From positions 1 through 64,000 of the forward strand of contig VBOZ01000025.1 in NCBI GenBank assembly GCA_005893305.1: a stretch of 64,000 nucleotides of DNA, given 5' to 3'. Below are positions 46,725 through 57,519 of the stretch, piece after piece. The notes below the pieces were generated by a model. The model worked only from the letters and a program-made list of their open reading frames with translations. It was not told the DNA's origin and made no database searches. Each line of letters starts with the position of its first letter. The stretch's first letter is position 1. The position numbers were made by a program, and so were the translations under genes. This stretch comes from Candidatus Eisenbacteria bacterium. Its GTDB lineage: Bacteria > Eisenbacteria > RBG-16-71-46 > SZUA-252.

Positions 46725-48053
46725 ATGGTCAAGAAGGGTAAGACGGGAAGCTGGGAGGCACGGTTCTTCCGCCGGGTGGAGAACCGCTCCGCCCGCATCG
46801 GGATCATCGGACTCGGATATGTGGGACTGCCCCTCGCCGTGGAATTCGCGCGCGCCGGATTTCGCGTCACGGGATTCGAGATCGACGCGAAGCGCGTCGG
46901 GATCTTGAATTCGGGGCGTTCGTACATTCAGGACGTGCCGACGAAGGAGCTCGGGCAGCTCGTCCGGAGCGGGATGCTGAAGGCGACGCTGAGCTTCGAC
47001 TCGCTGCGGCAGATGGACGCGATCGATATCTGCGTCCCGACCCCGCTCCGAAAGACGAGGGACCCGGACGTCTCGTACATCGCGGCGGCCGTCGGCGAGA
47101 TCGCGCAGCGGCTTCGTCCGGGACAGTTGGTCGTGCTCGAAAGCACGACCTACCCGGGAACGACCGACGAGCTGGTGCGCCCGATGCTCGAGGCGCGTGG
47201 ACTCCGCGCGGGACGGGACTTTTTCCTCGCGTTCTCTCCCGAGCGGGTCGATCCCGGCAACCCGCGGCACAACACGCGGAACATCCCCAAGGTGATCGGT
47301 GGCGTCACCCCGGGCTGCACGCGGGCCGCTTCCGAGCTTTACTCCTCGGTGCTCGACCGCGTCGTCCCCGTGGGCTCGACCCGCGTGGCGGAAATGGTGA
47401 AGCTTCTCGAGAACACCTATCGGAGCGTGAACATCGGGCTCGTGAACGAGATCGCGCTCATGTGCGACAAGATGAAGATCGACGTCTGGGAAGTCATCGA
47501 CGCGGCAGCGACGAAGCCATTTGGATTCATGCCGTTCTACCCGGGGCCGGGGCTGGGCGGCCATTGCATCCCGATCGACCCGTTTTACCTCTCGTGGAAG
47601 GCGAAGCAAAGCGGCTTTGAAGCCCGATTCATCGAGCTGGCGGGGCACGTCAACAGCCACATGCCGCACCACGTCGCCGGACTGGTCGCCACGGCTTTGA
47701 ATCAAAAGAAGAAGTCGATTCGCGGCTCCAAGATCCTGATCCTTGGGGTTGCTTACAAGGCGGACATCGACGACGTGAGGGAATCGCCGGCCCTGGACCT
47801 CATCGAGATCCTCGAGAAGGAAGGGGCCCACGTCGAGTTCGCGGACCCGCACGTGCCGTACATTCGCGTCGACGGAGAGAAGCGGCCGGCGCGCCGCCTG
47901 AGCCCTTCGGTCTTGCGCGGCGCCGACTGCACAGTGATCGTCACGCGCCATCGCGCGTTCGACTTCGCCGTGGTGGCTTGCCACGCCCGCACGATCGTCG
48001 ATTGCCGAAACGCGCTCGCCGGCCGGAAACGCTCGGGATTGGTCCGACTCTAG
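46725..48053 (+). CDS. UDP-N-acetyl-hexosamine 6-dehydrogenase (WbpA/WecC family)
   Basis: The 442-residue protein oxidises C6 of a UDP-HexNAc to the uronic acid using NAD. Features are the Rossmann motif IGIIGLGYVGLPLAVEFA, ESTTYPGTTDEL, AFSPERVDPGN, the catalytic region KLLENTYRSVNIGLVNEIA, PGPGLGGHCIPIDPFYLSWKA with the catalytic Cys, and GVAYKADIDDVRESPAL. UDP-GlcNAc (WbpA) and UDP-ManNAc (WecC) dehydrogenases look alike at this level. The neighbouring WbpP-like epimerase favours the first, wecB the second. GAGGAG precedes the ATG. Confidence 0.9.
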   Translation: MVKKGKTGSWEARFFRRVENRSARIGIIGLGYVGLPLAVEFARAGFRVTGFEIDAKRVGILNSGRSYIQDVPTKELGQLVRSGMLKATLSFDSLRQMDAIDICVPTPLRKTRDPDVSYIAAAVGEIAQRLRPGQLVVLESTTYPGTTDELVRPMLEARGLRAGRDFFLAFSPERVDPGNPRHNTRNIPKVIGGVTPGCTRAASELYSSVLDRVVPVGSTRVAEMVKLLENTYRSVNIGLVNEIALMCDKMKIDVWEVIDAAATKPFGFMPFYPGPGLGGHCIPIDPFYLSWKAKQSGFEARFIELAGHVNSHMPHHVAGLVATALNQKKKSIRGSKILILGVAYKADIDDVRESPALDLIEILEKEGAHVEFADPHVPYIRVDGEKRPARRLSPSVLRGADCTVIVTRHRAFDFAVVACHARTIVDCRNALAGRKRSGLVRL

Positions 48054-48060
48054 GAGAGCA

Positions 48061-49014
48061 ATGGCACTCTACCTTGTGACCGGCGGAGCCGGATTCATCG
48101 GATCCCACATCGCGGCGCGGCTCCTGAAGCTGGGGCACCACGTCCGCGTTCTCGACAACCTGTCCACCGGGAGGAAGTCGAATCTCGACGCGATTCGCGA
48201 GGAGGGCCCCAAAGGGAAGTTCGAGTGGCTCGAGGGCGACCTGCGGTCCCTTCCCACATGCCAGCAAGCGTGCGAGGGCGTCGAGTACGTGCTCCACGAG
48301 GCAGCTCTCGCCTCGGTGGAGCGGTCGATTCGAAACCCGGTGGAGAGCACCGAGGTGAACGTGGGGGGCCTCGTGAACCTGCTCGTCGCGGCGCGAGAGC
48401 GGGGGGTGCGCCGCGTGGTCCTTGCGAGCTCCTCATCGGTCTACGGCGACACGCCGACCCTCCCGAAGCATGAGGACATGGTGCCGCATCCGTTGTCCCC
48501 CTACGCGGCCAGCAAGCTCGCGGGCGAGCACTTCGCCTCGGTGTACCAGAAGAGCTTGGGCCTCTCCACCGTCTGCTTGCGGTACTTCAACGTATTCGGC
48601 CCGCGTCAGGACCCCAAGTCCGAGTACGCCGCGGTCATTCCCCGGTTCGTCACGGCGCTCCTCAGGAAGGAGCGCCCCATCGTGTTCGGGGACGGCGGCC
48701 AGACTCGCGACTTCACGTTCATCGACAACGTGGTGCAGGCGAATCTGGACGCGTGCACCCGGCCCGAAGCGGGCGGGCAGTCGATCAATATCGCGGCGGG
48801 AGAGCAGAACTCGCTCCTGCAGCTCCTCGAGCAGCTGGGCTCGATCCTCGGCGTGAAGGCCGATCCCGAGTTTCGACCGCCCCGTGCCGGGGACGTCCGA
48901 GACTCCTTTGCCGACGTCTCGAGGGCGACCCGACTCCTCGGCTATGCGCCCGCGGTGAATTTCCGGGACGGCTTGACTCGCACCGTGGAGTACTACCGGA
49001 GTGGCGGCGCGTGA
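48061..49014 (+). CDS. NAD-dependent nucleotide-sugar epimerase (WbpP-like)
   Basis: This extended short-chain dehydrogenase has 317 residues, with NAD-binding TGGAGFIGSHIAARLL, HEAALASVERSIRNP, SSSSVYGD, and the catalytic SPYAASKLAGE (YxxxK). LRYFNVFGPRQDP and a late GDVRDSFADVS follow. The pattern with ASVERS and FGPRQDP is that of UDP-GlcNAc/UDP-GlcNAcA 4-epimerases. After the dehydrogenase it would give UDP-GalNAcA; this is inference. Confidence 0.88.
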   Translation: MALYLVTGGAGFIGSHIAARLLKLGHHVRVLDNLSTGRKSNLDAIREEGPKGKFEWLEGDLRSLPTCQQACEGVEYVLHEAALASVERSIRNPVESTEVNVGGLVNLLVAARERGVRRVVLASSSSVYGDTPTLPKHEDMVPHPLSPYAASKLAGEHFASVYQKSLGLSTVCLRYFNVFGPRQDPKSEYAAVIPRFVTALLRKERPIVFGDGGQTRDFTFIDNVVQANLDACTRPEAGGQSINIAAGEQNSLLQLLEQLGSILGVKADPEFRPPRAGDVRDSFADVSRATRLLGYAPAVNFRDGLTRTVEYYRSGGA

Positions 49015-49053: not shown

Positions 49054-50994
49054 ATGTGCGGCATAGCCGGGATCTGGAACCGGGACTCACGCGAGCCGGT
49101 CGCCCCGTCGTCATTACGGGCGATGGTGGCCTCGATCGCTCACCGTGGCCCCGACGACGACGGCGTGTTCCTCGATGGCGATCTAGGGCTGGGCCACGAC
49201 CGCCTGAGCATCATCGATCTCAACTCCGGCCAGCAGCCGATGAGCAACGTGGACGGAACCACCTGGATCGTCTTCAACGGCGAGATATTCAATTACGTCG
49301 AGCTCCGGGCGGAGCTCGTCGCGCGGGGGCATCGGTTCAGGACCACCTCGGACACCGAGGTCATTCTCAACCTCTACGAGGAGCGCGGCGCGGATTGCGT
49401 CTCTTCGTTCAACGGCCAGTTCGCCTTCGCTCTCTGGGATACGCGAACGCGCTCCCTCCTGCTGGCGCGGGATCGCCTCGGGGTGCGCCCGCTCTTCTAC
49501 ACATGGCACGGCGGCGGCATCCGGTTCGCCTCGGAGATCAAAGCGCTCCTGACCGATCCGACGCTTCCACGTCGGGTCGACCCGATCGCGCTCGATCAGA
49601 TCTTCACGTTCTGGTTTCCGATCGCGCCGCGGACCGGATTCGAGGGAATCGAGGAGCTGCCCCCGGGCACGACGCTCACGATCACAAGCGAAAGCCAGAC
49701 GCCGCGGCGCTACTGGTCGCTTCGCTACCCTGCGGCGGGGGAGGCGAACGGCACGGGGGGACGGTCCTCGCGAGAGTACGCGGAGGAGCTCATGTCGCTC
49801 CTCTCGGACGCGGTCCGTATCCGCCTCCGGGCCGATGTTCCCGTCGCGTCGTATTTGAGCGGAGGGCTTGATTCGTCCGTCATCTCCGCCCTCTGCCACA
49901 AGCAGCTAGGGGGCGGATTCAACACGTTCTCGATCGAGTTCGAAGCAGCGGCCTTCGACGAGGCCTCGTTCCAGTCCTCGGTGGTAAAGCGGCTCGGGAC
50001 GCGACACCGGGCATTCCGCTGCAGCGGGAAGTCGATCGGCGAGGCACTGCCGCGCGCCGTCTATCACGCGGAGCGGCCCCTCCTGCGCTCGGCCCCGGTG
50101 CCGATGATGCTTCTGGCCAAGGGGGTCCACGAAGCGGGGATCAAGGTGGTGCTCACCGGGGAGGGGGCGGACGAGATCCTTGCCGGCTACGACATCTTCA
50201 AGGAGGCGAAGGTCCGGCGCTTCTGGGCGCGCTATCCCCAGTCGACGTGGCGGCCGCGGCTCTTGGAAAGGCTCTACCCCTACCTCTCCGACCTCCAGCG
50301 AACGTCGGGCTACCTGAGGGCCTTTTTCGGACAGGGACTCGAGGACACGGGCGATCCGTTCTATTCGCACCGGCCCCGTTGGCGGGTTTCCGCGCCGCTA
50401 CGGATGCTCTACGGGCCCGCGATCCGCGAGAGGGTGGCGGGGTACGACGCGATCGCGGATCTCCGCGACCAGCTGCCAGCCGAGTTCAGCGCCTGGCATC
50501 CGCTGTCGCAGGCGCAGTACCTGGAGGCCGCGTTCCTGTTGCCCGGGTACCTCCTCTCGTCGCAGGGCGATCGCATGGCCATGGCGCACGCGGTCGAGGG
50601 ACGATATCCGTTCCTGGACCACCGTGTTGTCGAGTTTGCCGCGACCATCCCGCCGAACCTCAAGATCCGCGGTCTTCGGGAAAAGCACGTCCTCCGGGAA
50701 GGGGTGCGGGAGATCCTCCCCGAAGCCATCGTCGACCGCGCGAAGCAACCGTACCGGGCCCCGGACCAGGACGCCCTGTTCCAAGAGGGTGCCGCCGGTG
50801 AGCTCACGCGCGCGGCGCTCTCCCCGTTGGCGCTCTCGGGCTCCGGTCTCTTCCAGCCCAATTCGATCCGAGGGTTGATGGAGAAGGGCGCCCGCCAACC
50901 CAGCCTGGGAGTCCGCGACAACATGGCTTTGATCGGCGCCGTGACGACACAGCTGTGGCACAAGCAATTCTTCCAGAACGAGGAGGGAGCATAG
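49054..50994 (+). CDS. asnB: Glutamine-hydrolysing asparagine synthetase-family amidotransferase
   Basis: The 646-residue product starts MCGIAGIWNRD, with Cys2 as the glutaminase nucleophile after Met removal. It has HRGPDDDG, NGEIFNYVELR, SGGLDSSVISALC (the PP-loop at about 268-280), and LTGEGADEILAGY. In surface-polysaccharide loci such proteins (WbpS type) amidate sugar uronic acids rather than aspartate. The preceding dehydrogenase and epimerase make this attractive here. True asparagine synthesis is the alternative. Confidence 0.9.
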   Translation: MCGIAGIWNRDSREPVAPSSLRAMVASIAHRGPDDDGVFLDGDLGLGHDRLSIIDLNSGQQPMSNVDGTTWIVFNGEIFNYVELRAELVARGHRFRTTSDTEVILNLYEERGADCVSSFNGQFAFALWDTRTRSLLLARDRLGVRPLFYTWHGGGIRFASEIKALLTDPTLPRRVDPIALDQIFTFWFPIAPRTGFEGIEELPPGTTLTITSESQTPRRYWSLRYPAAGEANGTGGRSSREYAEELMSLLSDAVRIRLRADVPVASYLSGGLDSSVISALCHKQLGGGFNTFSIEFEAAAFDEASFQSSVVKRLGTRHRAFRCSGKSIGEALPRAVYHAERPLLRSAPVPMMLLAKGVHEAGIKVVLTGEGADEILAGYDIFKEAKVRRFWARYPQSTWRPRLLERLYPYLSDLQRTSGYLRAFFGQGLEDTGDPFYSHRPRWRVSAPLRMLYGPAIRERVAGYDAIADLRDQLPAEFSAWHPLSQAQYLEAAFLLPGYLLSSQGDRMAMAHAVEGRYPFLDHRVVEFAATIPPNLKIRGLREKHVLREGVREILPEAIVDRAKQPYRAPDQDALFQEGAAGELTRAALSPLALSGSGLFQPNSIRGLMEKGARQPSLGVRDNMALIGAVTTQLWHKQFFQNEEGA

Positions 50995-51260
50995 TGGCCG
51001 GTGCCGCGGAGGTTCTGAGGGAGTTCATTCTGGAGAATTTCTTGTTCGGCGACCGGAACGCGCCCCTCTCTCCGGACGACTCCTTCTCCGAGCGGGGCAT
51101 CGTCGACTCGACCGGAATTCTAGAGCTTGTCGCCTTCGTCGAGGAATCGTTCGGGCTCTCCATTGGCGACGAGGAGATCGTCCCCGAGAATTTCGATTCG
51201 ATCGCCCGGCTCACCCAATTCATCGACCGAAAGAGGAGTGCCGCTCCGAATGCGGGTTGA
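50994..51260 (+). CDS. Acyl carrier protein
   Basis: GTG 50994 overlaps the asnB stop and follows GAGGAGGGAG. The 88-residue acidic protein has the carrier fold pattern, with GIVDSTGILELVAFVEESFG holding the phosphopantetheine Ser (about residue 39), and ENFDSIARLTQFI at the end. It is a dedicated carrier for the next gene's ligase, which it overlaps by 11 bases, and not the housekeeping AcpP (DSLD motif). Confidence 0.88.
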   Translation: MAGAAEVLREFILENFLFGDRNAPLSPDDSFSERGIVDSTGILELVAFVEESFGLSIGDEEIVPENFDSIARLTQFIDRKRSAAPNAG

Positions 51261-52821
51261 AGAATTCCTGCGAGAATCCGCTCAACGCGCGCCCGACAAG
51301 GTCGCGCTCATCGCGCAGGGGACGCGGCACACGTACCGCGAGCTGGACCGGAGAAGCGACTCGCTCGCGAGCGCCCTGATCTCGGCGGGCGTCCAGCGGG
51401 GTGACCTGGTCGCCATCTTCCTCGATAACTCCGTCGAGGCCGCCATCGGACTGTTCGCCGCCCTCAAGACGGGGGCCGTGTTCCTGATCATCAACGCGAC
51501 AACCAAGAGCGACGCGCTCGCGTTCATCCTGAACGATTGCCGCGCCGTCGGGCTGATCAGCCACGCCCGGTTGGAATCGGTGATCGTGGGGATGACCGCA
51601 GCCACGCCGTCGCTTCGGTGGACCAGCTTGGTCGGAGGAGGGAAGGAATCGCCGCTCGCAGGAGCTCGGGGCCTCGAGTGGAACGAGGTGACGCGGCCCG
51701 ACGGGCCCGCCTTGGCACCGTCGCCGCCGGCCTCGTCGAACGACGCCGACCTCGCAATGATCATCTACACCTCCGGCTCCACGGGATTCCCGAAGGGTGT
51801 GATGATGGCGCACTCGAACGTCGTCAACGTCTCGGCCTCCATCATCCAATATCTCGAGAATTCAAGCAGCGACATCATCCTGTCGGTATTGCCCCTTTCC
51901 TTCGGGTATGGGCTCTACCAGCTTCTGGTTACGATCCGGAGCGGGGGCACGCTCGTCCTCGAGCGCACCTTCGCCTATCCCGCCCGCATCATGGAGATGC
52001 TCGCCCAGGAGCAGGTCACCGGCTTTCCGATCATCCCCACGATGGCGGCCCTGATGCTTCAGATGAAGGGACTGAAACCGGGACAGTTTCCGCGGCTTCG
52101 GTATATAACGAACGCGGCCGCCGCTCTGCCTCCCGCGCACATCCGCGCGATCCGGGATCTTTTCCCGAGTACCAAGCTCTACTCCATGTACGGCCAGACG
52201 GAGTGCACGCGCGTCTGTTATCTGCCCCCACACCTTCTGGAGAAGAAGCCGGGCTCGGTCGGCATCGCGATTCCCAACACGGAGGTCTACATCGTGAACG
52301 AGTCGTCCGAGCGCGTCGGCCCCGGGGTGGTGGGGGAGCTCGTGGTGCGCGGACCGCATGTGATGCGGGGATACTGGGAACGCGACGAGGAGACGGCGCG
52401 TGCCCTTCGACCCGGCCCGCTGCCGGGCGAGCGAGTTCTCCATACGGGCGACCTCTTCACCATGGACGCGGAGGGCTGCCTCTATTTCGTCAGCCGCAAA
52501 GACGACATCATCAAGACGAGGGGCGAAAAGGTCAGCCCGAAGGAAGTCGAGACGGTCATCGCCTCGCTGCCGGGCGTGGCGGAGGCTGCGGTCGTCGGCA
52601 TGCCGGATCCGGTCCTCGGGGAAGCCGTCAAGGCGATCGTGGTCGTTCGCGCGGGCGCCAAGGTCTCCGCCCAGGACGTGCTGAGACACTGCGCGGGGCG
52701 CCTCGAGACGTTCATGATTCCGAAGCTCGTGGAGTTCCGCGAATCGCTTCCGCACACGCCCAACGGAAAGGTCAACAAGCGTGAGCTACGCCTCCAGGCG
52801 GCCGGGGAGGTGCCCTCATGA
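51250..52821 (+). CDS. Acyl-AMP ligase (adenylate-forming enzyme)
   Basis: From ATG 51250 the 523-residue protein has the ANL-superfamily motifs IIYTSGSTGFPKGVMM (about 171-187), SMYGQTECTRVC, LHTGDLFTMDAEG, KTRGEKVSPKEVE, and the catalytic Lys in PHTPNGKVNKREL. It probably activates a carboxylic or amino acid and loads it on the adjacent carrier protein. Close relatives occur in exosortase-linked polysaccharide loci, but no exosortase is seen here. Confidence 0.9.
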   Translation: MRVEEFLRESAQRAPDKVALIAQGTRHTYRELDRRSDSLASALISAGVQRGDLVAIFLDNSVEAAIGLFAALKTGAVFLIINATTKSDALAFILNDCRAVGLISHARLESVIVGMTAATPSLRWTSLVGGGKESPLAGARGLEWNEVTRPDGPALAPSPPASSNDADLAMIIYTSGSTGFPKGVMMAHSNVVNVSASIIQYLENSSSDIILSVLPLSFGYGLYQLLVTIRSGGTLVLERTFAYPARIMEMLAQEQVTGFPIIPTMAALMLQMKGLKPGQFPRLRYITNAAAALPPAHIRAIRDLFPSTKLYSMYGQTECTRVCYLPPHLLEKKPGSVGIAIPNTEVYIVNESSERVGPGVVGELVVRGPHVMRGYWERDEETARALRPGPLPGERVLHTGDLFTMDAEGCLYFVSRKDDIIKTRGEKVSPKEVETVIASLPGVAEAAVVGMPDPVLGEAVKAIVVVRAGAKVSAQDVLRHCAGRLETFMIPKLVEFRESLPHTPNGKVNKRELRLQAAGEVPS

Positions 52822-53810
52822 GCCCTCCCAAGTTCTCCCATAAGGCTCTGGAGCTCGATGCCGCCCGTTCGTGCTCCGAGATCGAAGCCGCCATTCGAGA
52901 CCAAGTGACTCAGAAGCTTCGTCTCCGCGGCGCGGTCGTCGGGCTCTCGGGAGGAATCGACAGTAGCGTCGTGGCCGCCCTATGCGCCCGAGCGCTGGGA
53001 CCCGACCGCGTCCTGGGCATCTTCATGCCGGAGGCCGATAGCTCGGGCGAGACCACCGGCCTGGGCCGGTCGGTCGCGAAGTCCCTGGGAATCGAGAGCG
53101 TCCTCGAGGATATCTCGGGTGTGCTCGAGGCCGCCGGCTGCTACCAGCGGCGGGACGACGCGATTCGCTCGGTCCTCCCCGAATACGGGGCCGGGTACAA
53201 GAGCAAGATTGTCCTGCCCGGCCTCTCGGAGCGGCGCGGCTACGCGGTCAATTGGCTGGTGGCCGAGGATCCGCGGGGGAAGGAGATCCGCGTCCGCCTC
53301 ACCGGGGAGGCCTACCTGGGAATCGTCGCGGCGACGAACTTCAAGCAACGGACGCGGAAAATGCTCGAGTATTACCACGCCGATCGGAAGCACTACGCCG
53401 TGGCCGGAACGCCGAACCGCCTCGAGTACGACCAGGGCTTCTTCGTCAAGAACGGCGACGGCGCTGCCGACTTCAAGCCGATCGCTCATCTGTACAAGAC
53501 TCAGGTCTATCAGCTCGCGGAATATGTCGGCATCCCCGCGGACGTCCGGAGCCGCCCCCCCACGACGGATACCTATTCACTCCCTCAATCGCAGGACGAG
53601 TTCTACTTCTCGCTCCCGCACGGGCAGCTGGACCTCTGTCTCTACGGATGGAACCACAGGATTCCCGCTGCCGACGTGGCCGCGGTCGCCGATTTGACTG
53701 AGCCACAGGTCGAATGGGTCTACCGCGACATCGAAGCGAAGCGGCGGGCGACACGGTACCTCCACTCGAAACCTCTCCTGATCGAGGATATGCCAGAGGT
53801 CGGGGTCTGA
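52818..53810 (+). CDS. NAD synthetase (NadE)-like ATP pyrophosphatase
   Basis: This 330-residue protein has the PP-loop VVGLSGGIDSSVVAALCA at about 40-57, and NadE-like stretches GIFMPEADSS, VAATNFKQRTRKMLEYYHAD, AGTPNRLEYDQGFFVKNGDG, FKPIAHLYKTQVYQLAEYVGIP and SLPQSQDEFYFSLP. It is about 55 residues longer than ammonia-dependent NadE because of an insertion around 125-160 (VLPGLSERRG, NWLVAEDPRGKEI). There is no glutaminase domain. It may make NAD, or may be recruited as an amide-forming enzyme for the glycan cassette. Confidence 0.8.
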   Translation: MSPPKFSHKALELDAARSCSEIEAAIRDQVTQKLRLRGAVVGLSGGIDSSVVAALCARALGPDRVLGIFMPEADSSGETTGLGRSVAKSLGIESVLEDISGVLEAAGCYQRRDDAIRSVLPEYGAGYKSKIVLPGLSERRGYAVNWLVAEDPRGKEIRVRLTGEAYLGIVAATNFKQRTRKMLEYYHADRKHYAVAGTPNRLEYDQGFFVKNGDGAADFKPIAHLYKTQVYQLAEYVGIPADVRSRPPTTDTYSLPQSQDEFYFSLPHGQLDLCLYGWNHRIPAADVAAVADLTEPQVEWVYRDIEAKRRATRYLHSKPLLIEDMPEVGV

Positions 53811-53863
53811 AGGGCCCCCACCCATGGCCTATTCCGTCCATTCGGTCGACGTCGAGTCCGGAC

Positions 53864-54862
53864 GTGGGCGACGCCGATCGCGAATCGTTCGAGTCGAAAT
53901 TCCAATGGATCTATCGGGACAATCCCGCGGGGCCCGCGATCGTCTGGATCCTTCACGATGAAGGCTCCCGCCGGGACGTGGGACTCGCCACGATCTTTCC
54001 GCGGCTCTTCCGCGTCCGTGGCCGCTCCGTGCGCGCCGGGATCGCCGGAGACCTTCAGGTCCACGAAGGGCATCGACAGGCGGGCCCCGCGCTCCAGCTC
54101 GAGCGCGCGGCCGTGCAGGGCGCCTGGGAGCGCGGCATCGAGTTCATGTACGGGTTTCCCAACGCGCTCGCGGAGCCGGTCATGAAGCGGATCGGCTATC
54201 GGAGGGTGGGACCCCGCGCACGCTACGTGAAGATCCTCCGCACGGCGCCCTACTTTGCCCGGCACCGCGGGACGGCGCTCTGGCGGCGCCCCTTCGGGTT
54301 CATCGTCGATCAGTTCCTGCGAGCACGGGATCTTCAGGCCGCCCGCCCGTCCAAGCGGAAGCTCGCGAGCGGACCGCTTGCCGGATTCGACGATCGGTTC
54401 GACGCGCTCTGGGGCGAGGTATCGGACGCGTACCCGGTGCTAGGCGAGCGCGATTCGAGCTATCTCCGCTGGCGCTACCCGACGGTCGGGCGGGAGGCGC
54501 ACGGCGTTTTCGGGCTCTGGGACCGCGGAACGTCCGACCTTCGGGGGTATGTGGTCCACCGGCGCCAAGGCGGCTCCGTCGATGTCCGGGACGCGATGGC
54601 TCCGGCCGACCCGGAGATCTGGTCCGCGCTTCTCGCCGCGTTCTCCGGTTGGGCGTGGGGCGGGGGAGCCCACTCGCTGGTCTGGACGGGGCTTCAGAAC
54701 GAGATGCTGGAGCAGCTCTGCCTCAAGCGGGCCGCCTTCCTCAGGCGACCCGATTCGCTCCACGTGTACGCCTTTCCGGGGCCGAGCGTGGCCGCGGGCG
54801 ATCCCGACTTCATGAACTCCGCCCCCTGGATGCTGTTCCAATCCGATGATGACTGTCCCTAG
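53864..54862 (+). CDS. GNAT-like acyltransferase, N-terminus uncertain
   Basis: GTG 53864 gives 332 residues starting near DADRESFESKFQWIYRDNPAGPA. This is a GNAT-family fold with a DLQVHEGHRQAGPALQLERA acyl-CoA binding region and FMYGFPNALAEPVMKRIGY. A second half-domain follows, as in GNAT proteins of polysaccharide loci. A plausible family N-terminus (ATG 53824, MAYSVHSVDVES) is encoded in the adjacent frame just upstream. The start may have been lost by a small indel at 53850-53870. Its 3' end overlaps the next gene by 17 bases. Confidence 0.7.
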   Translation: MGDADRESFESKFQWIYRDNPAGPAIVWILHDEGSRRDVGLATIFPRLFRVRGRSVRAGIAGDLQVHEGHRQAGPALQLERAAVQGAWERGIEFMYGFPNALAEPVMKRIGYRRVGPRARYVKILRTAPYFARHRGTALWRRPFGFIVDQFLRARDLQAARPSKRKLASGPLAGFDDRFDALWGEVSDAYPVLGERDSSYLRWRYPTVGREAHGVFGLWDRGTSDLRGYVVHRRQGGSVDVRDAMAPADPEIWSALLAAFSGWAWGGGAHSLVWTGLQNEMLEQLCLKRAAFLRRPDSLHVYAFPGPSVAAGDPDFMNSAPWMLFQSDDDCP

Positions 54863-56018
54863 CCCCCTCTGGTGGAGCCTCACGATCCTCTTCTGGGTCC
54901 TCGCGGGAATCGTCCTCTACACGTTCCTCGGGTATCCGGCGGCGTTGCTCGTGCTCTCCCGCTTGAGGCCTCGGGACGTGCGCCGCGGAACTGGAACGCC
55001 GTTCGTGAGCATCATGACGGCCGCGCGCAATGAAGCGTCCTGCATCCGGGCGACGATCGAGAACAAGTTGTCCCTCGACTACCCGGCGGATCGCCGGGAG
55101 ATCATCGTCATCTCGGACGCGTCCGACGACGGCACCGACGAGATCGTCCGTGAGTTCGCGGACCAGGGAGTCCGTCTCGTCAGGCAGAACGAGCGCGGCG
55201 GCAAGTCGGCTGCGCTCAACCTCGGGCTCGAGATCGCAAAGGGGGAGATCATCGTCTTCTCGGACGCGAATTCGATCTACGAGCGCTCCGCCCTCCGGGA
55301 GCTTGTCCGCGCCTTCGAGGACCCCTCCGTGGGATACGTCACCGGAAAGATGGTCTACACCCACCCCGACGGCTCGATCGTCGGGGAGGGCTGTTCGGCC
55401 TACATGCGCTACGAGAATCGGCTCCGGGAATGGGAGACGAAGGTCGGGTCGATCGTCGGGGTGGATGGCGGGGTGGACGCCATGAGGCGGGGCCTGTACC
55501 AACCGCTCCGTCCGGATCAGCTCCCGGATTTCGTTATGCCACTGCATGTTACGCGCGCCGGTTACCGTGTAGTCTATGAGCCCGCGGCGGTGCTCCGCGA
55601 GGCAACGACCACCAAGCCGGCGGACGAGTACCGTATGCGGGTCCGGGTCGCGCTCCGGGCGCTGTGGGCGCTCCGGGATGAACCCGACCTCCTGAACCCG
55701 TTTCGCTTCGGTGTGTTCTCATGGCAGCTCTTCTCGCACAAGGTGCTTCGGTATGGAGCGTTCGCGCCGCTTCTCCTCTTGCTCGTCGTCAGTGGCATCC
55801 TGGCGGTTCAGCCGGGGCTCTACCGGTTCCTTTTCTGGGTTCAGGCCGCAGGCTACGGGGCGGGGGCTCTTGGATTTCTTCTCTCCGGACGCCGATCCGT
55901 TCCCGGGCTTCTCTCGCTGCCGTACTACTTCATTCTGATCCAGGCAGCCTCCTGCCACGCCGTGCTCAAGCTCCTGGCTGGGCAGACGATCGTTGTCTGG
56001 AATCCGCGGACAGGATGA
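54846..56018 (+). CDS. GT2 family membrane glycosyltransferase (cellulose-synthase-like)
   Basis: The 390-residue protein has an N-terminal membrane helix (about 10-32), and then a GT2 catalytic domain: VSIMTAARNEASCI, IIVISDASDDGTDEIV, RGGKSAALNLGLEIA, IIVFSDANSIYERSALREL, GVDGGVDAMRRGLY. The C-terminus has three or more membrane helices (about 300-380). The shape resembles processive or membrane-bound GT2 enzymes that add sugars to lipid-linked glycans. The donor is unknown. Confidence 0.88.
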   Translation: MMTVPSPLWWSLTILFWVLAGIVLYTFLGYPAALLVLSRLRPRDVRRGTGTPFVSIMTAARNEASCIRATIENKLSLDYPADRREIIVISDASDDGTDEIVREFADQGVRLVRQNERGGKSAALNLGLEIAKGEIIVFSDANSIYERSALRELVRAFEDPSVGYVTGKMVYTHPDGSIVGEGCSAYMRYENRLREWETKVGSIVGVDGGVDAMRRGLYQPLRPDQLPDFVMPLHVTRAGYRVVYEPAAVLREATTTKPADEYRMRVRVALRALWALRDEPDLLNPFRFGVFSWQLFSHKVLRYGAFAPLLLLLVVSGILAVQPGLYRFLFWVQAAGYGAGALGFLLSGRRSVPGLLSLPYYFILIQAASCHAVLKLLAGQTIVVWNPRTG

Positions 56019-56040
56019 GCCGCCGCGTGAGGCGATAAGA

Positions 56041-57519
56041 ATGCCCGAGGAATCGAAAGGCGAGTTCAAATTCCTGCTGAAGCACTCCTCGGTCTACGGC
56101 ATTGGAAACCTGCTTTCCAAGGCGGTCGGCTTCATCCTGCTTCCGCTCTATACGCGGTATCTCACGCCCACGGACTACGGGATCCTCGAGCTGATCGACG
56201 TGACGGCGGGGATGATCGGGATCATTATCGGCCTCGGCGTCGCGGAGGCGGTCAGCCGCTTCTATTACGAGCCGACCGCGCTCCAGGAGCGAAACAGGGT
56301 CGTGAGCACGGCCTACTGGGTCGCGACCGCTCTCACGGGCGCCGGCGCGTTTGTCGCCTCTCTCTTCGCGGTACCGCTCGCGGGACTCGCCCTCGACTCG
56401 TCGAAGAGCGCCCCGCTCCTCCTGGTCAGCTTCGCGGCGCTCGCGATCGGGGTCATCGTCGACATAGGACAGCTGAACCTCCGTCTCCAATACAAATCGA
56501 TGGTCTTCAACGCGATCTCGATCCTGAGCCTTGTGCTCGGCGTGACGTTGAACGTCGTCTTCATCGTCGCGTTCCACTGGGGCGTCATGGGGATCCTGCT
56601 CAGCTCTTTGGTGACGCGAATCATTATCGGCCTGCCGCTCACGGTCTGGACCCTCACGCGAACCGGCCTGGGGCTGGATTGGCCACTGGCGAAGCAGATG
56701 GTCCGGTTCGGAGCGCCGCTCGTCCCGTCGAGCTTGGCGTCCACTCTGGTCAACTATTCCGACCGCTACTTCATCAAGCACTTCGCGTCGATCGCGGACG
56801 CGGGCATCTGGGGTCTCGCGAACAAGATGGGGACGGCGATCCACATGCTGATCACCTCTCCCTTCATCATGACGTTCTTGCCGCGCCGATTCGAGATCGT
56901 GAAGCGCGCGGATGCGCCGGAGACGTTCGCTCGCGTGGGCGAATACTTTTTCCTCGCCATCACGACGTGCGGGCTCTTTGTCGTGCTCTTCGTCGACGAA
57001 ATTCTTCTGGTCATGACCACCCCCGGCTTCTACTCGGCGGGCGCTCTCGTCCCGTGGATCGTGCTGTCGATGGTCCTGTTCGGAATGAAGTATCACTTCG
57101 AGTTCGGGATCCTCTACGCAAAGAAGACGCACCATTACGCGGTGATCAACATGGCGACCGCGGTCCTTCACGTTACGCTCAACCTCATTCTCGTCCGCGC
57201 CTACGGAGTCTTCGGGGCCGCGCTGGCGGCTGTCGGGACCGTGAGCTTCAATACCGTCGCGGTCTACGTGGCGGGTCAACGGCTCTATGCGATCCCGTTC
57301 GACTTCGGCCGCCAATTCCGGGTCGCCGGGATCGCGGCCCTTCTCTTCTTCGCCTCGCGGCTCATTCATTTCCCGAGGCTGGCGGAGACTGTCGTTTTCA
57401 AGGGAGGGCTCTTCCTCGCGTTTCCCGTGCTTCTGTTCTTGACGCGCGCCATCTCGCGGGAGGATGTCGGGCGGGCCGGAAGCTTCGTCGCTCGTCGGCT
57501 CGGCCTCGAAAGGCAGTAG
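56041..57519 (+). CDS. wzx: Wzx-type polysaccharide flippase
   Basis: ATG 56041 gives 492 residues with about 12-14 hydrophobic segments and the typical start of the family, FKFLLKHSSVYGIGNLLSKAVGF and LLPLYTRYLTPTDYGILELI. Polysacc_synt-type features continue (VRFGAPLVPSSLASTLVNYSDRYFIK). It moves the lipid-linked repeat unit across the inner membrane. It begins 22 bases after the GT2 gene, and the next GTG is one base after its stop. Confidence 0.92.
   Translation: MPEESKGEFKFLLKHSSVYGIGNLLSKAVGFILLPLYTRYLTPTDYGILELIDVTAGMIGIIIGLGVAEAVSRFYYEPTALQERNRVVSTAYWVATALTGAGAFVASLFAVPLAGLALDSSKSAPLLLVSFAALAIGVIVDIGQLNLRLQYKSMVFNAISILSLVLGVTLNVVFIVAFHWGVMGILLSSLVTRIIIGLPLTVWTLTRTGLGLDWPLAKQMVRFGAPLVPSSLASTLVNYSDRYFIKHFASIADAGIWGLANKMGTAIHMLITSPFIMTFLPRRFEIVKRADAPETFARVGEYFFLAITTCGLFVVLFVDEILLVMTTPGFYSAGALVPWIVLSMVLFGMKYHFEFGILYAKKTHHYAVINMATAVLHVTLNLILVRAYGVFGAALAAVGTVSFNTVAVYVAGQRLYAIPFDFGRQFRVAGIAALLFFASRLIHFPRLAETVVFKGGLFLAFPVLLFLTRAISREDVGRAGSFVARRLGLERQ

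Follow-up and report, generated by a model that had tools for sequence, protein, structure and literature searches.

A recurrent cassette of AsnB, carrier protein, acyl-ACP ligase and NadE-like genes in a Candidatus Eisenbacteria polysaccharide locus: a possible carrier-dependent amide-forming module

We analysed a cassette of five genes at positions 49,054 to 54,862 of contig VBOZ01000025.1 from a Candidatus Eisenbacteria bacterium, within a stretch of 64,000 nucleotides that we call the window. All five genes lie on the plus strand and encode an AsnB-type protein, an acyl carrier protein (ACP), an AMP-forming acyl-ACP ligase (AAL), a NadE-like PP-loop protein and a tandem-GNAT protein. An earlier note on this DNA had described five coupled genes of these families, and its family assignments hold; for the GNAT gene, however, the 5′ end is less certain than described, and the Pfam score of its product lies below the cut-off. 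The features are as follows.

49054..50994, + strand: AsnB-type glutamine-dependent amidotransferase/synthetase, 646 aa (Pfam Asn_synthase 305 bits, GATase_7)
50994..51260, + strand: ACP, 88 aa, GTG start, phosphopantetheine site Ser39
51250..52821, + strand: AAL, 523 aa (AMP-binding 323 bits)
52818..53810, + strand: NadE-like PP-loop putative amide synthetase of the NF002048/PRK00876 type, 330 aa (NF002048 497 bits)
53864..54862, + strand: predicted tandem-GNAT (Eis/N-myristoyltransferase-like) N-acyltransferase, 5′ end uncertain (longest open reading frame 53714-54862)
46725..49014, + strand: context directly upstream, UDP-sugar dehydrogenase and epimerase (TIGR03026 435 bits; Epimerase 208 bits)
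54846..57519, + strand: context downstream, GT2 glycosyltransferase and Wzx-type flippase (Glycos_transf_2 90 bits; Polysacc_synt 88 bits)

The first four genes overlap by 1 nt (AsnB/ACP), 11 nt (ACP/AAL, with the AAL start placed at 51250 instead of the mechanical start of the reading frame at 51127) and 4 nt (AAL/NadE-like), and therefore almost certainly form one transcription unit. The GNAT gene overlaps the GT2 gene by 17 nt. Besides the UDP-sugar dehydrogenase, epimerase, glycosyltransferases and flippase, the surrounding polysaccharide locus encodes a UDP-GlcNAc 2-epimerase, export and chain-length proteins and a deacetylase. We tentatively read this setting as an exopolysaccharide or capsule locus into which a self-contained, carrier-protein-dependent and putatively amide-forming module was recruited.

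Our scan of genome contigs recovered at least 549 relatives. The best 80 of them, which are the nearest to the query and hence no random sample, came from Planctomycetes, Acidobacteria, Nitrospira, alpha-, beta-, gamma- and deltaproteobacteria, Actinobacteria, Verrucomicrobia and others. Partner genes were counted at 59 NadE-like loci with flanks of 5 kb or more in each direction, and 20 canonical NadE loci from related genomes served as controls in an identical search. AsnB and the ligase were each found at 55 of the 59 loci, the ACP at 50 and all four core genes at 44, while not one of the 20 control loci carried an AsnB, ACP or ligase gene. Where the set is complete, its genes are arranged in no fewer than eight different orders, of which AsnB-ACP-AAL-NadE is the commonest (29 loci). 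Constant gene content with rearranged order is strong evidence of one function, and we have hardly any doubt that AsnB, ACP, AAL and the NadE-like protein form one functional unit. The same picture is seen within the class of the window genome, where five further genomes carry an NF002048 member above the cut-off, with AsnB and ACP adjoining in all five and the ligase in four. Carriage of NF002048 is accessory, being found in 6/47 genomes of the class and in 0/8 other genomes of the window's family.

The NadE-like protein scores well above the curated cut-off of NF002048 (497 bits over residues 5-325; cut-off 313). Its AlphaFold2 (AF2) model (pLDDT 89) matches NadE (2e18; Foldseek TMt 0.84) and nicotinamide mononucleotide (NMN) synthetase (3fiu; TMt 0.88). 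The likeness to NH3-dependent NadE and NMN synthetase lies in the fold and in the PP-loop/adenylation core: the motifs SGGIDSS (PP-loop), GTPN-E, GDGAAD and PI-LYK are kept, and across 48 homologues the SGGxDSS PP-loop and adenylation core are invariant or nearly so. In contrast, the P2 loop reads QSQ[ED]EFYF in this family and Q[TS]DExELG in most of the solved NadEs shown, the RxRM of canonical NadE is replaced by RxRK (K181 in 45/48 homologues), and a predicted beta-rich insert at about residues 106-165 carries near-invariant C108, Y109, R111 and K130. Q259, E261, F264 and E184 are invariant in all 48 sequences. Coupling to ACP and ligase and the status of an extra copy further set the protein apart from canonical NadE; a separate canonical NAD synthetase of 595 aa (G000:C1:81241, 241 bits) rules out that the cassette gene is the cell's sole NadE. 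The earlier note had called the protein an unusual NadE member, and the separate canonical enzyme, the altered P2 loop and RxRK bear this out. A sole nadE with strict NadE residues and a gene order not conserved elsewhere, which the note had named as evidence against its proposal, is not what we found. Curated models and public records call NF002048 proteins “NAD(+) synthase”. Our evidence points to module enzymes with another substrate, and this annotation is probably wrong in hundreds of genomes. Of the named control genomes, just one, that of the archaeon Methanosarcina acetivorans, carried an NF002048 member above the cut-off.

In AsnB, the nucleophile Cys2 and the NGE, SDTEV and SGGxDS motifs are kept across 63 cassette homologues, so that the glutaminase and synthetase motifs are both intact. 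The solved structure nearest to the window protein is 7ylz, a hydroxyamidotransferase, which sets a precedent for a substrate other than asparagine; this relative is annotated with a non-asparagine reaction and, as far as tested, does not lie in an ACP/NadE cassette. A second AsnB is encoded elsewhere in the window genome. The ACP has its attachment site at D38-S39 in the motif GIVDSTGI, with the phosphopantetheine serine of the DS motif present, and scores 20.2 bits against Pfam PP-binding, just under the cut-off of 20.8, and 47 bits against NCBIfam carrier-protein models.

The best NCBIfam match of the AAL is TIGR03098 at 456 bits, under its cut-off of 592. Its pocket residues are G219, T320 and R321. 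R321 is invariant: all 77 cassette ligases have it, as does the ligase of the XrtA type, and it is absent from three unrelated AMP ligases; from its position in the pocket, a substrate with a second acidic group is plausible. Covariation is seen between positions 219 and 320: D219 occurs with K320 in 28/28 sequences, and otherwise G219 stands mostly with T, I, A or L320 (the p-value is indicative only, the ligase sequences being related). The loaded acid therefore probably differs among cassettes, and the switch from D219-K320 to G219-T/I/A/L320 hints at two acid specificities within one cassette family. Residue 219 was also considered as a marker of amino-acid substrates; it is D in 28 cassette ligases, always together with K320, and G in the window. 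We saw no link with the presence of GNAT and therefore called no substrate from it. In Nitrospira cassettes (L066:6729-9866, L047, L060 and L067) a type I and a type II ligase are fused in one reading frame of about 1045 aa, and type II ligases substitute for type I at other cassette loci.

The closest relative of the window cassette is the exosortase-A (XrtA) cassette, which comprises a TIGR03108 amidotransferase, an ACP, a TIGR03098 ligase and a TIGR03099 pyridoxal phosphate (PLP)-dependent decarboxylase. Both have homologous AsnB, ACP and ligase genes clustered in polysaccharide loci, but the exosortase-A cassette has the decarboxylase where the window cassette has the NadE-like enzyme. The resemblance to exosortase-linked loci pointed out by the earlier note is reflected in TIGR03098 as best ligase match. 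The note had also reported that exosortase and PLP decarboxylase are missing, and in the window genome (95.8% complete) we found neither an exosortase nor, at E <= 1e-40, a TIGR03099-type decarboxylase. The window AsnB reaches 456 bits against TIGR03108, below the cut-off of 816.9. The exosortase-A version itself is present in a genome of the same genus, G001 (L140 = G001:C243, 7486-13780), with AsnB at 1016 bits against TIGR03108 (cut-off 817), ligase at 647 bits against TIGR03098 (cut-off 592), an ACP and a TIGR03099-like decarboxylase that scores 454 bits (cut-off 478). G001 has its exosortase on a different contig, and no NF002048 member was found in this genome. Judged from these sequence comparisons, the window cassette is a sister variant of the exosortase-A cassette and not a member of it. 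Several Nitrospira cassettes adjoin an exosortase and DUF3485; an exosortase link by nature is nevertheless ruled out by the window genome and G034, both of which lack an exosortase. In the butirosin system (BtrI/BtrJ/BtrK), an amino diacid is put on an ACP by a ligase, and the free carboxylate of this diacid is then processed; the system has a PLP decarboxylase and no NadE-like enzyme, and makes an antibiotic side chain. The putative likeness to our cassette is that of a diacid on an ACP with processing of the free carboxylate.

A counterpart of the window cassette is found on pSymB of Sinorhizobium meliloti, where all four genes are adjacent in the same order, asnB-acp-ligase-nadE (an order shared by the window and L113/L118), with identities from 53% (ligase) to 58% (NadE-like). 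This operon differs from the window in standing alone near minCDE with no polysaccharide genes adjoining, and its ligase pocket is of the D/K type, whereas that of the window ligase is of the G/T type. In strain 1021, the single ACP-like gene of pSymB with a recognisable ligase nearby is the one in the cassette operon, and we therefore infer that the operon ACP and ligase are SMb20651 and SMb20650. Another pSymB ACP as SMb20651 was rejected: the other two PP-binding sites have no nearby ligase detectable with the window AAL. Ramos-Vega et al. 2009 is a cited source on the SMb20651/SMb20650 pair. The two genes are cotranscribed, the ACP is produced in holo form with AcpS, and the ligase, which had been given a long-chain acyl-CoA ligase annotation, yields acylated ACP in E. 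coli in vivo; it cannot replace FadD, and oleate use and fatty-acid activation are not restored (PMC7232532). Elsewhere, SMb20651 is listed as an ACP of unresolved function (PMC5686131). The description of the pathway as undescribed in the earlier note thus needs qualification, since the ACP and ligase have been studied in S. meliloti, and stands as regards their function there. In the open-access literature we found no paper that treats the four genes as a module, nor one on PRK00876 or TIGR03098, and the cassette genes are unmentioned in Haft 2006 (PMC1569441).

The fifth gene of the window is a frequent partner outside the cassette core. A GNAT-like protein of about 370 aa adjoins the cassette at around 19 of 85 loci and on four plasmids. 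Planctomycetes, Acidobacteria and rhizobia are among the groups with a tandem GNAT next to the cassette, and between the window-type and rhizobial-type proteins there is remote homology (hhalign probability 96.5%, 304 columns). Of the five-gene order that the earlier note proposed to look for in other genomes, the recurring four-gene set remains, while the order is not fixed and GNAT does not belong to the core. The window protein reaches 23.0 bits against Pfam Acetyltransf_9, under the cut-off of 25, and its AF2 model (pLDDT 83) matches 3n7z (Foldseek E 1.3e-13) as well as Eis2 and N-myristoyltransferases, so that the model clearly has a tandem-GNAT fold. The long reading frame (53714-54862) overlaps the NadE-like gene by 97 nt, and its first 50 or so codons have no match to homologues; the conserved part starts near the GTG codon at 53864. 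In homologues, some 35 residues precede the F-x-W motif, among them the first strand and helix of the GNAT fold. The corresponding stretch of the window, from about 53824 to 53890, is short and out of frame; this strand and helix are either lacking or frame-shifted, and no single frame aligns over 53714-53890. A later start (GTG 53864), a damaged end and a sequence error are all possible.

Taking these observations together, we tentatively favour, at somewhat less than even confidence, a carrier-dependent amide-forming module in which the AAL would load an acid, the NadE-like enzyme would amidate it and the GNAT would transfer it. The cassette probably builds an amide-bearing acid on its carrier, and the acid loaded is probably dicarboxylic. 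In the first step, held with high confidence, the AAL would adenylate a carboxylic acid and load it onto the ACP, as seen experimentally for the S. meliloti counterpart. In the second, for which our confidence is again below even, the NadE-like enzyme could use ATP to activate the second, free carboxylate of the carrier-bound acid and yield an amide. It would thereby stand in for the PLP decarboxylase, by which this carboxylate is removed in the exosortase-A cassette; since decarboxylase and NadE-like enzyme alternate in otherwise homologous cassettes, we propose that both act on the free carboxylate. AsnB, present in both versions, would use glutamine, either supplying ammonia or forming a further amide, and is the least certain part of the mechanism. 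Finally, and with rather more doubt, the GNAT of this locus might take the completed acyl group off the ACP and attach it to an amine, plausibly that of an amino sugar in the polysaccharide. More generally, though this too is doubtful, a NadE-derived synthetase may have been repurposed to amidate a carboxylic acid on a dedicated carrier, as a widespread, unrecognised alternative to decarboxylation of the exosortase-A or butirosin kind.

Several points weigh against this proposal. AsnB exceeds the cut-off for ordinary asparagine synthetase (TIGR01536; 507 bits, cut-off 267) and may merely make asparagine or supply ammonia. The putative role of R321 as a carboxylate ligand is a reading of its position only. 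One single acid for all cassettes appears unlikely given the differing AAL pockets. Moreover, the GNAT is absent at most loci, and its 5′ end may be damaged here.

Conservation of the NadE-like protein and AsnB, while the AAL pocket varies (D/K versus G/T) and type II AAL occurs, could also mean that the acid is variable and the acceptor constant. The two enzymes would then make a constant amide-bearing small molecule, for example from a uronic acid or a nucleotide, which the acyl-ACP would acylate via the GNAT or another acyltransferase. The UDP-sugar dehydrogenase and epimerase directly upstream in the window and the recurrence of GNATs beside the cassette are in line with this explanation. 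We nevertheless regard it as unlikely, though the strongest of the alternatives, since the rhizobial operon has no adjoining nucleotide-sugar genes and the replacement of the NadE-like enzyme by an amino-acid decarboxylase in the exosortase-A version suggests that this step concerns the loaded acid. A related idea, amidation by AsnB of a UDP-uronic acid from the two upstream genes, is possible and disfavoured, as AsnB accompanies the module also at loci where sugar genes are lacking.

A role in surface lipids or lipopolysaccharide appears rather improbable. Here the AAL would charge the ACP with a fatty or hydroxy acid, and AsnB and the NadE-like enzyme would make a head-group amide. In its favour, SMb20650 bears the annotation of a long-chain acyl-CoA ligase and forms acylated ACP in E. 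coli, but neither oleate use nor fatty-acid activation is recovered with it (PMC7232532). The cassette ACPs match the ornithine-lipid ACP model, but weakly, at 47-57 bits against a cut-off of 130, and the predicted GNAT fold matches N-myristoyltransferases, yet tandem GNAT folds such as Eis need no long acyl chains. It is very improbable that the cluster is a loose metabolic island with a second NAD synthetase and an asparagine-making AsnB, as the NCBIfam name of NF002048 and the asparagine synthetase score of AsnB would have it, given that the genome encodes NadE separately and has another AsnB, that the P2 loop and the RxRM region both carry invariant changes, that coupling with ACP and ligase is tight across many phyla and gene orders, and that the distribution within the class is accessory.

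The earlier note had seen in the cassette a glycan-decoration pathway. The cassette stands alone on plasmids of S. meliloti and Mesorhizobium ciceri, has transporters and unrelated metabolism for neighbours in Rhizobium ACO-34A and Shinella HZN7, and lies near glycosyltransferases in Shinella PSBB067. Since it stands alone in several rhizobia, glycan decoration does not define the cassette; it is likely at the window locus and not general. If our preferred amide-forming mechanism is true, some bacteria would use the amide-bearing acyl groups to decorate their glycans, and others would make free metabolites with them. The cassette product, once known, would explain a surface or secreted modification common to many soil and water bacteria, and would also clarify the AsnB/ACP/ligase core of exosortase-A loci. 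S. meliloti pSymB offers a tractable organism for such work, with ACP and ligase already cloned by others.

Two further observations concern the neighbourhood of the cassette in other genomes. An SGNH-hydrolase-like family with FGHQSVG and DDGGHLN motifs is encoded near it at 16 loci (L052:7714-8544 and 15 others), including exosortase ones; it is absent from the window, and its one Pfam match, to GDSL, is sub-threshold. In addition, a record titled Bacillus subtilis SK6B4 (L078) carries a rhizobial-type cassette with an alphaproteobacterial-like GNAT and is probably mislabelled or contaminated.

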